Shown here: piece after piece, positions 7,014 to 40,743 of the stretch
Layout: every line of letters begins with the position of its first letter
Position numbering within the stretch: the first letter of the stretch is position 1
Source of the DNA: Alphaproteobacteria bacterium
GTDB taxonomy: Bacteria > Pseudomonadota > Alphaproteobacteria > RF32 > CAG-239
DNA: 44,410 bases
Assembly: GCA_017475525.1 (NCBI GenBank)
Contig: JAFVFH010000022.1
Coordinates: forward strand, 1 to 44,410
Reading direction: 5' to 3'
Notes under the pieces: generated by a model
What the model was told of the DNA's origin: nothing
Seen by the model: the letters and a program-made list of their open reading frames with translations, nothing else
Databases searched by the model: none
Position numbers and translations under genes: made by a program

Positions 7014-7042
7014 TTTACAAATAAAATCAATAATGTTAAAAT
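7014..7042 (+). promoter_or_regulatory. sigma-70-type promoter of leader RNA A
   Basis: TTTACA at 7014-7019 and TAAAAT at 7037-7042 are separated by 17 nt, placing the start at about 7049, exactly at the first hairpin of the leader. The same arrangement precedes the other leader copies. Confidence 0.75.
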
Positions 7043-7047
7043 ATATA

Positions 7048-7214
7048 CATCGTTTGAAAATCAAACGATGGTGTCTACAAAACACATTTGACCAAGTAGC
7101 TCCTTGTATGAGGAGTTGTTGAAATAAGCGCATTTTGTGTGACGAATAAAACAGACTGTGGTCAAACAGTTTTGTAGCTCCTCCATTTTGAAAATTTCAA
7201 GGTGGATTTTTTTT
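7048..7214 (+). ncRNA. class 1 structured leader RNA, copy A, ending in a terminator
   Basis: A leader of about 166 nt before the LRR gene at 7241. Visible elements: a first hairpin (7048-7057 with 7061-7070); conserved GGTGTCT; a long-range helix CTACAAAAC 7075-7083 with GTTTTGTAG 7169-7177; a second long-range helix TTTGACCA 7087-7094 with TGGTCAAA 7159-7166; an inner hairpin AGCTCCT 7098-7104 with AGGAGTT 7111-7117; a UUUU-loop hairpin flanked by ATAAG and GACGAATAA; and an intrinsic terminator TCCATTTTGAA 7182-7192 with TTCAAGGTGGA 7196-7206 plus eight Ts. The helices covary with copies B, C and D. AGGAG can pair instead with the CTCCTCC at the foot of the terminator. It could be a cis-attenuator or a free small RNA. 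Confidence 0.85.
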
Positions 7215-7240: not shown

Positions 7241-8158
7241 ATGAAGAAAAAAATTTTAGTTTTTACACTGGTGTTGTGTTGGCAGTCAAATGCCATGGCA
7301 ATCGCAAATTGCCCTCAAGGGACAACAGAAAATGTTGATTGTTGGAGTTGCGGTGTTGATTGCACGGCATATTTGAGCAATATAAAAGATGAAGCAGGAA
7401 ATATTGTGAAAGTTTCGGGGACAGAGACGGCATCTCAAAAACTGACTGTTATCGGAACAGGTGATATGCAAAACTATTCTCCTGTTTGTGATAATGGTTG
7501 CTCATCGACATCTCCGTGGTATACTTTTCGTGATTCAATTACAGATATTAAAGTGGAAGGATTGGATTCAGTAGGAGGATGGGCTTTTTCTTTTATGAAT
7601 AAAGTCTCATCGGTTGAACTTTCCGAGGGATTAAAAGAAATTAAAACAGGTGCTTTTTTTGAAAATTCCAGTTTAACATCGATTGAAATACCGGATAGTG
7701 TTGAATCAATATCAGATGCTTTTAATGATTGCGGGCTTTTATCGTCCGTGAAGCTGCCTTCAAGCCTAAAAACACTTGATGCTAGTGCATTTTCAAATGC
7801 CGCTATTGAAAATATTGTTATTCCGACAAGTGTGACGTCCGTATCTGCTGATGCTTTCGGAAATGCGACGTCAGCCGGTGGTTATTATTCAAAATCCAAA
7901 ATCATCAATGTTTATTGCAATGAGGAAATTGCCAATCAGTGTGAGGCAGCCGTGCAATGGAAAAGAGATCTGGGAAAAGAGGTCAATGTGATACCTTATC
8001 AAAAGGACGGTCATCAAATTTTTTACAATAACCATTGGTATAACAGTGCAAATGACATTTTGTTCGGCACTTATCTTAAAAAACGCGTATATACTGTTGA
8101 AGAAGCTCAAAAAGTGAGCAAAAAGACGGGAAACACATTTAAGCTCAGGTATAAATAG
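7241..8158 (+). CDS. secreted BspA-like leucine-rich-repeat protein with FKLRYK C-terminal tail (LRR 1)
   Basis: A 305-residue exported protein. Signal peptide residues 1-20 end in AMA; an N-terminal Cys-rich module (CPQGT, then CWSCGVDC) leads to a GTGDM...PW segment. BspA-type (LRR_5-like) repeats cover about 103-210, with units such as SLTSIEIPDSVESI and IENIVIPTSVTSV. After the repeats comes a conserved Cys pair (NVYCNEEIANQCEAAV), then IFYNNHWYNSANDI, and the final 27-residue tail with VYTVEEA and GNTFKLRYK, shared with five other proteins here. AGGAG precedes the ATG. The gene sits directly behind class 1 leader RNA A. LRR_5 proteins of gut bacteria are often adhesins, but the function here is not shown. 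The stop is TAG. Confidence 0.88.
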   Translation: MKKKILVFTLVLCWQSNAMAIANCPQGTTENVDCWSCGVDCTAYLSNIKDEAGNIVKVSGTETASQKLTVIGTGDMQNYSPVCDNGCSSTSPWYTFRDSITDIKVEGLDSVGGWAFSFMNKVSSVELSEGLKEIKTGAFFENSSLTSIEIPDSVESISDAFNDCGLLSSVKLPSSLKTLDASAFSNAAIENIVIPTSVTSVSADAFGNATSAGGYYSKSKIINVYCNEEIANQCEAAVQWKRDLGKEVNVIPYQKDGHQIFYNNHWYNSANDILFGTYLKKRVYTVEEAQKVSKKTGNTFKLRYK

Positions 8159-11698: not shown

Positions 11699-11858
11699 AA
11701 AAAATTCCGTCTTAAATAACCTAAAACGGAGGAGCTACAAAACTGCGGAAGACAGCTGAACTTATTCGACACAATACGGCTTATATCGTTCACTCCTCTC
11801 TAAAGGAGTCATTTTCTTCCGCGTGTTTTGTAAACACCGCAACCATTTTGGTTACGTT
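11699..11858 (-). ncRNA. class 1 structured leader RNA, copy C
   Basis: On the minus strand: first hairpin GTAACC/GGTTGC, GGTGTTT, long-range helices ACAAAAC/GTTTTGT and GCGGAAGA/TCTTCCGC, inner hairpin ACTCCT/AGGAGT, the ATAAGC...TCGAATAA junction, then the terminator TCCGTTTT/AAGACGGA with a T-run. The second long-range helix has a wholly different sequence from copies A and B but stays paired. AGGAG can pair alternatively with the downstream CTCCTCC. The RNA ends about 35 nt before the LRR 2 start codon. Confidence 0.83.
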
Positions 11859-13337: not shown

Positions 13338-13597
13338 TGGATAGTGAAGGTGACTTTTCTATCAAGTGTCTTGATAAGGCGCGGGGCTTTGAAATAGCTT
13401 TTTATAGAGAGCGGTGACGGATAACACCGCAAAAGGTGCTGTCCTTTTTTGTTTTTAAAGGGAAAGCATGTTATCCCCGATGTTGGTTCGGGGAGCCCGT
13501 AACGGATGTTCAAGGATTTTCCTAAAGGTTATGGGAGTCATTTCTCTCTATATGATTATTTCACTCTCCGACCGCTCTTAAAAAGACGCGGTTTTTT
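13338..13597 (+). ncRNA. class 2 structured leader RNA, copy E
   Basis: About 260 nt before LRR 3. Elements in order: hairpin TATCAA/TTGATA with GTGTC in the loop; conserved CGGGGCTTT; long-range helix ATAGAGAG with CTCTCTAT; hairpin GCGGTG/CACCGC; a variable U-rich arm; hairpin CCCCGA/TCGGGG; helix CCCGTAAC with GTTATGGG enclosing ATGTTCA-hairpin-TAAAG; conserved GGGAGTCATT; and a terminator ACCGC/GCGGT with a T-run at 13592-13597. All helices covary with copies F and G. GGAGT can pair with ACTC at the foot of the terminator. The LRR 3 ATG is about 30 nt downstream. Confidence 0.83.
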
Positions 13598-13628
13598 GTT
13601 TTAACACTTGAAGTAGAAGGAAGAACTT

Positions 13629-18885: not shown

Positions 18886-19051
18886 CATCGTTTGAAATCA
18901 AACGATGGTGTCTAATAAGCACATTTAGAGCATAGGCTCCTTTTTAACGAGGAGTTTCTGAGATAAGCGTATTTTGCGACGAATAAAGAAGGCTGTGCTC
19001 TAACAGTTTATTAGCTCCTCCATTTTGAAGTTTTCAAGGTGGATTTTTTTT
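18886..19051 (+). ncRNA. class 1 structured leader RNA, copy B (in front of a pilin-like gene)
   Basis: Nearly the same primary sequence blocks as copy A, but with compensated helices: CTAATAA 18912-18918 with TTATTAG 19008-19014, and TTAGAGCA 18925-18932 with TGCTCTAA 18996-19003. The first hairpin (CATCGTTTG/CAAACGATG), the inner hairpin (GCTCCT/AGGAGT), the CGTA-TTT-TGCG hairpin and the terminator ending in TTTTTTT at 19044-19050 are all present. The terminator ends 24 nt before the chosen ATG. This copy shows that the leader is not restricted to LRR genes. Confidence 0.85.
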
Positions 19052-26039: not shown

Positions 26040-26717
26040 TCAGTTCTTTAATTTATTCCAGCCTTTCGGTGCTTGTTGTTGAGGCGCTTGGGGCATATTT
26101 TGAGAAGGTGTTTCCCAATTACGCACAGGCTGAGCTGAATTTTGCTTGCCAACCATTGCCTTGTCTTCATCAGAGAATGCAACACCGGTCGGCATTAACT
26201 GATTTAAGAGTGCTGGCGACACAAAATCAATACGACCCTCGGCAAAAACAGAACTAACGGCTTCAAGCGATTTTTGCGCCGGTGCGGCATTAAAGGATTT
26301 CATCGTGCCACCGTAAAAAACGGTGATTGAAGGGCAGGTATCTGAAAACAAAACATCTGTCGCGTCAATACCGCGAATAAAACGAAGCATTATTTTCGGT
26401 TCGATTTGGCAATTCGCGGATACTTCGGAAATATTTGTCGGGGTTTGGAAAAATTCTTTAATAAACACACTCTTTTCTTCGCCAAGCATACCGCAATAAC
26501 CTGTGAGAGCCATTTGATCTAAGGTGTAACCCTGATAGCCGGAAGGCGCCATTTGCACCGTGTAGCAAAAAACACGTTCCGAATTGACAATATTGTTTAA
26601 GGCTGAAGCAGGTAAATTCTTTGCAATGTAAGGGGTGATGTTTGCTGTTTGTGCATTTGCAAGCGAAGCAAAAGACAAAACAAGAGCAACAGATGATAAA
26701 AAGTGTGATATTTTCAT
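26040..26717 (-). CDS. secreted protein of unknown function
   Basis: 225 residues with a signal peptide (cleavage after ANA, mature QTANITPY). The mature part has four Cys residues in the middle (FCYTVQM, YCGMLGE, NCQIEP, TCPSI) and a C-terminal Gln/Pro-rich low-complexity tail. No family recognised. AGGAG lies before the ATG. It runs in the same direction as the next secreted gene, 112 nt away. Confidence 0.65.
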   Translation of the reverse strand: MKISHFLSSVALVLSFASLANAQTANITPYIAKNLPASALNNIVNSERVFCYTVQMAPSGYQGYTLDQMALTGYCGMLGEEKSVFIKEFFQTPTNISEVSANCQIEPKIMLRFIRGIDATDVLFSDTCPSITVFYGGTMKSFNAAPAQKSLEAVSSVFAEGRIDFVSPALLNQLMPTGVAFSDEDKAMVGKQNSAQPVRNWETPSQNMPQAPQQQAPKGWNKLKN

Positions 26718-30003: not shown

Positions 30004-30163
30004 AAAAAAAACACTTTAGAAAAATATCCAAAGTGGGAGCCAAACAACTACCTAGACATAGCCAAACTTATTCGTCCGGAAAACCGTCTTATTTCGTTTA
30101 CTCCCCATATAAGGAGTTAAGCCTAGGAAATGCCGTTTGGACACCGCAACCATTTTGGTTACG
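30004..30163 (-). ncRNA. class 1 structured leader RNA, copy D
   Basis: Minus strand: first hairpin GTAACC/GGTTGC identical to copy C, GGTGTCC, long-range helices CCAAAC/GTTTGG and CCTAG/CTAGG, inner hairpin ACTCC/GGAGT, hairpin CGG-TTTT-CCG, junction ATAAG/GACGAATAA, and terminator CACTTT/AAAGTG with seven Ts. It is the most divergent class 1 copy, so its compensating changes are the most informative. GGGAG pairs with a downstream CTCCC here, where copies A-C have AGGAG with CTCCT. Confidence 0.83.
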
Positions 30164-36961: not shown

Positions 36962-37007
36962 ATTTTTTCTCCTATGTAAAACATGTTTTTTAATTGTTAT
37001 CAAAACC

Positions 37008-37258
37008 AAAAAATACCGCCTATTGAGGCGGTCGGAGTGTTAGAAAATCAGACTTTGAGAAATGACTCCGATAGCCTTTAGGATAAATCCTTGAACATTC
37101 GCCATCGGCACCCCGACTTCAGCTCGGGGATAAAGTGTTATTTAAAATAAAAAAACAACACTTAAAAAACAGTGCTATCCATCACTGCTCAAAGTCAAAG
37201 CTTTCTAAAGCTCCGTGCCTATTAAGACACTTGATATAAAAATTTCTTTTTATATCTG
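37008..37258 (-). ncRNA. class 2 structured leader RNA, copy F
   Basis: Minus strand: hairpin TATCAA/TTAATA, CGGAGCTTT, long-range helix GACTTTGAG with CTCAAAGTC, hairpin CAGTG/CACTG, a U-rich arm with AAGTGTT/AACACTT, hairpin CCCCGA/TCGGGG, helix CCGAT/ATCGG around ATGTTCA-AGGATTTATCC-TAAAG, then CGGAGTCATT and the terminator ACCGCCT/AGGCGGT with six Ts. CGGAGT is perfectly complementary to ACTCCG at the foot of the terminator. About 47 nt separate the T-run from the LRR 5 start. Confidence 0.83.
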
Positions 37259-37264
37259 ACTAAC

Positions 37265-40476: not shown

Positions 40477-40708
40477 AAAAAAATCCGCTCTCGCGAGCGG
40501 CAGGGGAGTTAGACAATCATATCATGAGCAATGACTCCTAAAATCTTTAGCTTACAAAAAGCCTGAACATACATTTTAGGCTCCCCGCCATGCGGGGATT
40601 TAAATACCAAAAAAGGCATCCGAAAAGGATACCATCTCTGGTATCTCATGATATTGAGCCGTCTAAAGCCCCGAACCTCTCGGTTCTCGATGGAATTTCT
40701 TCCATCGT
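40477..40708 (-). ncRNA. class 2 structured leader RNA, copy G
   Basis: Minus strand: hairpin GATGGAA/TTCCATC, hairpin AACC/GGTT, CGGGGCTTT, long-range helix ATATCATGAG with CTCATGATAT, hairpin GATACC/GGTATC, hairpin CCCCGC/GCGGGG, helix CCTAAAAT with ATTTTAGG around ATGTTCA-GGCTTTTTGTAAGC-TAAAG, then GGAGTCATT and the terminator CCGCTC/GAGCGG with a GCGA loop and seven Ts. Every named helix differs in sequence from E and F yet is paired. GGAGT can pair with ACTCC before the terminator. Confidence 0.83.
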
Positions 40709-40714
40709 GATTTC

Positions 40715-40743
40715 ATGATAGCAAAAAAAATCTCATTTGTAAA
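40715..40743 (-). promoter_or_regulatory. sigma-70-type promoter of leader RNA G
   Basis: Minus strand: TTTACA 40738-40743, a 17-nt spacer, TATCAT 40715-40720. Confidence 0.68.

Follow-up and report, generated by a model that had tools for sequence, protein, structure and literature searches.

Class 1 leaders of an alphaproteobacterial genome: a repeated RNA family with a covarying alternative helix and the layout of a putative transcription attenuator

Leaders at the locus

The window, by which we mean the whole 44,410-nt stretch of DNA that was analysed, is the forward strand of contig JAFVFH010000022.1 from Alphaproteobacteria bacterium assembly GCA_017475525.1 (1.44 Mb, 85% complete). It carries leaders of two classes, each leading into an intrinsic terminator. 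The parts of class 1 leader A, the gene behind it and the remaining class 1 leaders are located as follows.

7014-7042, + strand: candidate sigma-70-like promoter (TTTACA-17-TAAAAT, with TG before the second hexamer), from its consensus match alone
7048-7070, + strand: P0, a 5′ palindromic hairpin (inverted repeat) at the probable transcript start
7071-7212, + strand: class 1 leader A, whole element (model R1, 138.4 bits)
7071-7085, + strand: hairpin PA, GUGU 7071-7074 / ACAC 7082-7085, as judged from the PA pair types
7075-7081, + strand: PA loop CUACAAA, paired with 7171-7177 (helix P1), as judged from P1 covariation
7087-7093, + strand: 5′ strand of P2, with its partner at 7160-7166 in the loop of hairpin P5
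7100-7104, + strand: segment 1, CUCCU, the 5′ arm of the inner hairpin P3
7110-7115, + strand: segment 2, GAGGAG, shared by P3 (as its 3′ arm) and the alternative helix (as its 5′ strand)
7117-7153, + strand: P3b (7117-7120/7150-7153), the conserved internal loop and the variable P4
7120-7128 / 7143-7149, + strand: conserved internal loop, UGAAAUAAG / CGAAUAA
7156-7169, + strand: hairpin P5, CUGU 7156-7159 / ACAG 7166-7169, around the 3′ strand of P2
7171-7177, + strand: 3′ strand of P1
7178-7183, + strand: segment 3, CUCCUC, forming the 3′ side of the alternative helix; its last two bases (7182-7183) are at the same time the first of the terminator stem
7182-7206, + strand: intrinsic terminator of leader A, followed by a T run
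7241-8158, + strand: gene behind leader A, encoding an LRR_5 protein of the BspA type that begins with a signal-peptide-like stretch (PF13306, E 2.8e-23)
18908-19049, + strand: class 1 leader B (GGAG 18951-18954, CTCC 19015-19018); the gene behind it encodes a protein with a pilin-like motif
11700-11837, - strand: class 1 leader C (GGAG 11796-11793, CTCC 11734-11731)
30005-30144, - strand: class 1 leader D (GGGGAG 30106-30101, CTCCC 30039-30035)

In leader A, the inner hairpin P3 is formed by CTCCT at 7100-7104 and AGGAG at 7111-7115, and a second CTCCT occupies 7178-7182, with its final base opening the terminator stem. The terminator of these leaders consists of a hairpin and a T run, and the gene start often lies 20-40 nt further downstream; as in an attenuator, the intrinsic terminator is part of the 5′ leader and precedes the start codon. 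P0 comes in three main sequence types, scored among 85 own-genome copies as GTAACC..GGTTGC (67 copies), CGTTTGA..TCAAACG (11 copies) and ATCTGA..TCAGAT (2 copies). Sigma-70-like consensus matches occur at a frequency no higher than in shuffles. The helices, the mutually exclusive alternative pairing, its overlap with the terminator and the gene sets, as described below, are read from the sequences themselves.

Family size and distribution

A DNA search found at least 40 relatives of leader A in its own genome, and a class 1 covariance model (R1), built from 39 own-genome copies, gave 86 matches there, of which 84 are strong and complete, one is truncated at a contig end and one is weak. Leaders A-D are members of one RNA family with about 85 copies in this 1.44-Mb genome. 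Within the order, class 1 RNA is present in 90 of the 125 sampled genomes, all 90 belonging to a single family of gut and rumen Alphaproteobacteria, and a scan across the class located one or two copies in each of three genomes from outside that family. In a phylum-wide sample of 299 genomes, where stricter filters cause weak matches to be lost, the own genome alone was matched. An exact-pattern scan of species genomes identified gut and rumen Alphaproteobacteria, including Azospirillum sp. CAG:239, as carriers, and several of its 60 matches fall in unrelated organisms and are likely due to chance; for one of these, L056, the class 1 model gives no match.

No Rfam family matches the window at gathering score, and at a relaxed E-value nothing credible was obtained for the class 1 leader. 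With regard to a phage origin of the RNA, exact-pattern scans of viral contigs returned zero matches. A description of class 1 RNA was not found in the literature covered, which includes the text of the human-microbiome survey PMC8040213, and an earlier, unnamed detection is possible. In the text of that survey, HTH-XRE genes are often neighbours of its candidate RNAs.

Helices and covariation of class 1

Over the 85 own-genome copies, 94.3% of the cells of the 36 modelled pairs contain a standard pair, compared with 67.2% in shuffles, and 31 of the 36 vary on both sides (in P1, P2, P3b, P4 and the terminator); because the alignment was fitted to that structure, these counts are biased in its favour. 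An independent consensus fold recovered nearly the same class 1 helices, and sliding the partners by one column lowered pairing to 43-50%. In anchored columns, which are independent of the model pairs, the top covarying pairs correspond to the same helices (mutual information with average-product correction and sequence weighting, restricted to the 144 automatically parsable copies). P2, which joins the P5 loop to an upstream segment, has a mean longest helix of 7.4 bp versus 4.1 bp with shuffled partners. The stem of PA is kept, as GUGU/ACAC and also as GAGC/GCUC and GUGC/GCAC, and so is that of P5 (CTG/CAG in 134 of 144 copies, CTA/TAG twice); their loops can therefore pair elsewhere with the stems standing. 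These loop pairings may represent kissing or pseudoknot contacts, or stems and loop pairings may alternate. The internal loop GANAUAAG / CGAAUAAG, which we take to resemble the UAA/GAN motif, is nearly invariant across class 1 copies. Class 1 has a conserved and covarying putative receptor domain, as is characteristic of riboswitches.

Beyond these helices, the fifth base of the element covaries with the base two before CUG (z about 6). This single pair, which corresponds to 7075 and 7154 in leader A (columns S+4 and N+11), links PA to the P5 side and is paired in 97% of cases.

A second pairing between GGAG and CUCC

It was originally predicted that in class 1 the 3′ arm of the inner hairpin is also complementary to a segment at the base of the terminator. 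All four leaders A-D display this complementarity, and the resulting helix is longer than expected by chance, with a mean of 6.16 bp versus 5.38 bp for shuffled partners (maximum 5.55 bp in 2,000 shuffles), although the shuffling leaves relatedness among copies uncontrolled. Relatedness is controlled in part by the covariation rank of the variable position, by nearest-neighbour pairs and by new forms of the helix in distant families, which are given below.

We designate the base before GGAG as X and the base after the 3′ CUCC as Y. Among 174 distinct copies, X and Y form a standard pair in 161 (A-U 68, G-C 66, G-U 18, U-A 6, C-G 3); as the copies are paralogues, these cell counts are not independent events. 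The other 13 comprise 12 U/U and one C/U. Two of the U/U cells come from the own genome (L173 and L176); the other 11 exceptions (10 U/U, one C/U) come from relatives and are of a GGAGGA-U type (e.g., L049), in which the anchor lies in a shifted register and, as read from the aligned sequences, CUCCUCC can still pair with GGAGGA. In the 144 parsable copies, X-Y ranks 14th of 4,501 column pairs (z 10.2, 92% paired), beside P1, P3b and P4, and X2-Y2 constitutes a weaker second covarying position (z 5.0). Since the GGAG/CUCC core is nearly invariant, much of the support comes from the one position X-Y. Out of 87 disjoint nearest-neighbour pairs of copies, seven change X and Y together, and six of the seven keep a standard pair. 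Types absent from the window include GGUGGAG/CUCCACC and GGCGGAG/CUCCGCC, as well as GAGGGAG/CUCCCUC in two copies from a distant family (L271 and L274) and GGGGGAG/CUCCCCC in another distant family (L272).

The relation between X and Y is not a shadow of P3, because own-genome copies keep U as the P3 5′ base (U-A 38, U-G 32) when X goes from A to G and Y from U to C. In relatives with X = U or C, the 5′ arm of P3 changes too (UCCACC/GGUGGA, UCCGC/GCGGA), so segment 2 keeps two partners; the rows with a 5′ arm UCCAC or UCCGC were read by eye. The coordinated A-to-G and T-to-C change in leader D had been taken as a sign that the second pairing is real. The pairing in D is indeed intact, and comparison with copy L014 (CTCC--CAC in D, CTCCTCCAC in L014) makes a 2-nt deletion a better reading than a T-to-C change; true substitutions at X-Y are also present in the wider class 1 data. 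Overall, the sequence data, with covariation that includes types absent from the window, strongly support the second pairing in class 1, and its geometry is that of an antiterminator.

Overlap with the terminator and folding energies

The helix GG(X)GGAG/CUCC(Y)CC excludes the inner hairpin P3 and overlaps the foot of the terminator, which is the arrangement expected of the alternative helix of an attenuator. When the helix was extended outward in each copy and the 3′ part was folded alone, it overlapped the 5′ arm of the terminator by 1-4 nt in 154 of 174 copies, most commonly by 2 nt, and the overlap persists across the indel variants CUCCUCC, CUCCCC and CUCCCA, in which the segment lacks one or two bases. 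The original prediction left open whether the pairing is a pseudoknot or an antiterminator, and the latter is the better reading because the helix competes with P3 and shares bases with the terminator foot, although a pseudoknot with P1/P2 is another form that it could take.

On average, the alternative duplex has an energy of -12.6 kcal/mol, versus -10.6 kcal/mol with shuffled partners (shuffle minimum -10.8), and the P3 hairpin and terminator have mean energies of -8.1 and -11.4 kcal/mol, respectively. In a nearest-neighbour model without pseudoknots, the alternative helix belongs to the minimum-energy structure of the full-length leader in 1 of 174 copies only, and the terminating fold (P1, P2, P3 and terminator) is favoured by 10.4 kcal/mol on average; for transcripts ending before the complete terminator, the same model favours it by 6-7 kcal/mol. 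Formation of the alternative helix would therefore need a factor, or a pseudoknot form that keeps P1 and P2.

Class 2 leaders

The second class is represented in the window by three leaders:

13355-13602, + strand: class 2 leader E (GGAGT 13534-13538, ACTCTCC 13563-13569)
36980-37260, - strand: class 2 leader F (CGGAGT 37070-37065, ACTCCG 37038-37033)
40480-40720, - strand: class 2 leader G, the third window copy, with approximate ends

The family comprises about 40 copies, with 39 DNA matches in the own genome and leader G outside those 39. It is frequent in the genus and weak in G010, a genome of another genus with no class 1 match. By inspection of 27 copies, its plan includes AGCU[loop]AGCU, the loop of which matches the segment just before CUCUCCG, and a second hairpin AGUCAU[loop]AUGAUU, with a loop matching an upstream segment. 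Both classes would then consist of two hairpins with distant loop pairing, followed by a CUCC-containing segment and the terminator, the class 2 arrangement being the one seen by inspection.

The proposal that a conserved GGAGT pairs with ACTCC before every leader terminator, providing both classes with a common switching logic, fares differently here. The complementarity exists in leader F, but GGAGU is present in 15 of 27 copies, with AGAGT or GAAGT in the remainder, so that neither its conservation nor the word "every" applies to class 2. Covariation between the two segments, strong in class 1, is absent in class 2, where pairing of GGAGU with the 3′ segment is no better than shuffled (-6.27 versus -6.50 kcal/mol, 176 of 200 shuffles as low); the GGAGU pairing does not qualify as the alternative helix of an attenuator, and a switching logic shared through GGAG/CUCC is not borne out. 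The stem that ends in GGAGU covaries instead with its own 5′ arm (-6.36 versus -3.50 kcal/mol shuffled, 0 of 200). The class 2 5′ GCGCGGAG and CUCCGACCGC, both nearly invariant, gave no support for a pairing with each other (-9.33 versus -9.42 kcal/mol). Class 2 also contains further possible pairings, such as GGAUAA/UUAUCC.

Genes behind the leaders

In the own genome, 49 of 78 proteins downstream of class 1 leaders match LRR_5 (BspA type) and six match RHS repeats; a pilin-like GRSMVEMLGVLAI motif is present in several others, and most of the proteins start with a signal-peptide-like stretch (both by eye). Conversely, 75 of the 88 LRR_5 gene clusters have a leader no more than 1.1 kb upstream (class 1, 50; class 2, 25); of the remaining 13, eight begin no further than 600 nt from the start of a contig. 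The LRR_5 proteins (e.g., 7241-8158) have a common C-terminal motif with the consensus KRIYTxEEAxxxSKxTGNTFxLRYK, which is possibly a sorting or assembly signal.

In relatives, many class 1 leaders directly precede proteins of 70-100 aa, several of them of HTH type. Where distant families have one or two copies, a protein of 75-80 aa directly follows three of the four leaders, and both of the proteins scanned match HTH families. Loci with small proteins directly behind the leader include L271, L274, L272 and many loci of relatives. These small HTH proteins may be autoregulated RNA-binding regulators, and the distribution suggests an older link of class 1 RNA to small regulators, followed by its spread to surface-protein genes.

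Proposed mechanism and alternatives

Class 1 leaders probably act in cis as transcription attenuators with a pseudoknot-capable receptor domain. Segment 1 (the 5′ arm of P3) and segment 3 (CUCCYCC) would compete for segment 2 (GGXGGAG). Pairing of 1 with 2 would leave segment 3 free and allow the full terminator to form, and pairing of 2 with 3 would break P3 and take bases from the terminator foot, so that the terminator is weakened or moved away from the U run and RNA polymerase reads through. The balance would be set by a signal read by the conserved core, i.e. the P1/P2 loop pairings and the GANAUAAG / CGAAUAAG internal loop. We infer transcription of the leader, termination, switching and its polarity from this layout; termination would be the default state, since the nested fold with the terminator has an average advantage in stability of about 10 kcal/mol.

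The GGAG/CUCC helix might instead be a constitutive structural pseudoknot beside P1 and P2 with no role as a switch arm. It does cross P1 and P2 at a distance of 1-2 nt from the P1 3′ strand, its mean energy exceeds that of P3 (-12.6 versus -8.1 kcal/mol), and at least two copies that lack a stable P3 by the energy test (L135 and L084:7103) keep it. Nevertheless, P3 is preserved in nearly all copies, its 5′ arm changes with X in relatives, which would be pointless if P3 never formed, and the helix overlaps the terminator foot, making a purely structural role unlikely. Still less can be said for the absence of any second pairing, with GGAG conserved for P3 and CUCC as a pre-terminator tract and their complementarity a by-product: the core hardly varies, and the two CUCC segments (5′ and 3′) resemble a direct repeat (UAGCUCCU), yet Y tracks X over four Watson-Crick types and through indels, whereas the P3 5′ base often does not, and we give this explanation hardly any credence.

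Given an attenuator, the nature of its signal has to be considered. The arrangement of 1:2/3:4 against 2:3 is the logic of amino-acid operon leaders, in which a ribosome translating a leader peptide decides between the folds. However, only one of the 85 own-genome leaders has an ATG frame of at least five codons with an SD-like sequence, which led us to reject a trp-type leader peptide, the lengths of GTG-frame peptides vary widely, Rfam leader matches are absent from the window, and the sequences of P1 and P2 vary freely, so no codon run is kept; ribosome-mediated attenuation is very improbable here. It is possible, if somewhat doubtful, that the signal is a protein, most likely a small HTH protein that would bind the leader RNA and regulate both its own gene and those for surface proteins. 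The position of such proteins directly behind many leaders of relatives and behind three of the four leaders in distant families, with HTH matches for the two scanned, agrees with this option, but a single conserved RNA core would have to be recognised by many divergent HTH paralogues, the usual target of HTH domains is DNA, and out of 10 small proteins two are without a Pfam match and a third has only a weak one, to an unrelated family.

Comparison with known systems

The attenuator proposed for class 1 resembles terminating riboswitches with an antiterminator in having a structured 5′ leader, a covarying receptor domain with pseudoknots, an intrinsic terminator and an exclusive alternative helix, and differs from them in finding no Rfam match at gathering score and in its number of about 85 copies in 1.44 Mb. 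With trp-type attenuators it shares four segments, of which 1:2 and 3:4 would terminate and 2:3 would allow read-through, but it has a large structured domain and no conserved leader peptide. In T-box leaders, too, an antiterminator competes with the terminator foot; the T-box family model is not matched in the window at Rfam gathering score. The PyrR binding site (RF00515), a protein-responsive attenuator leader, aligns weakly with 7098-7214, and was rejected as a chance-level match (20 bits versus a gathering score of 54, E 0.96).

With respect to its gene set, class 1 recalls c-di-GMP riboswitch regulons, in which one RNA class precedes many surface-protein, pilin and regulator genes. Rfam gave no match in the window at gathering score, and with GGDEF matches limited to one strong and one weak in the own genome, no guess at the ligand can be based on them. 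Tentatively, the two sequence-unrelated classes of one architecture may respond to one common signal and switch almost the entire secreted LRR repertoire of this small gut alphaproteobacterium on or off, class 1 having served small HTH regulators first and having then been copied before surface-protein genes in one genus. If so, a gut symbiont would place most of its secreted LRR proteins under the control of a single checkpoint at the RNA level. With about 85 class 1 and about 40 class 2 copies in 1.44 Mb, RNA attenuation would be unusually dense, and class 1, with its putative receptor domain, switch helix and gene set all defined by sequence, offers a clean system for finding a new ligand or RNA-binding regulator.

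Some class 1 leaders are arranged in tandem (L194, L137/L208, L219 and L084). The L194 pair (G000:C7:25952-26083 and 26157-26291) is located directly upstream of a gene for a small HTH-like protein.
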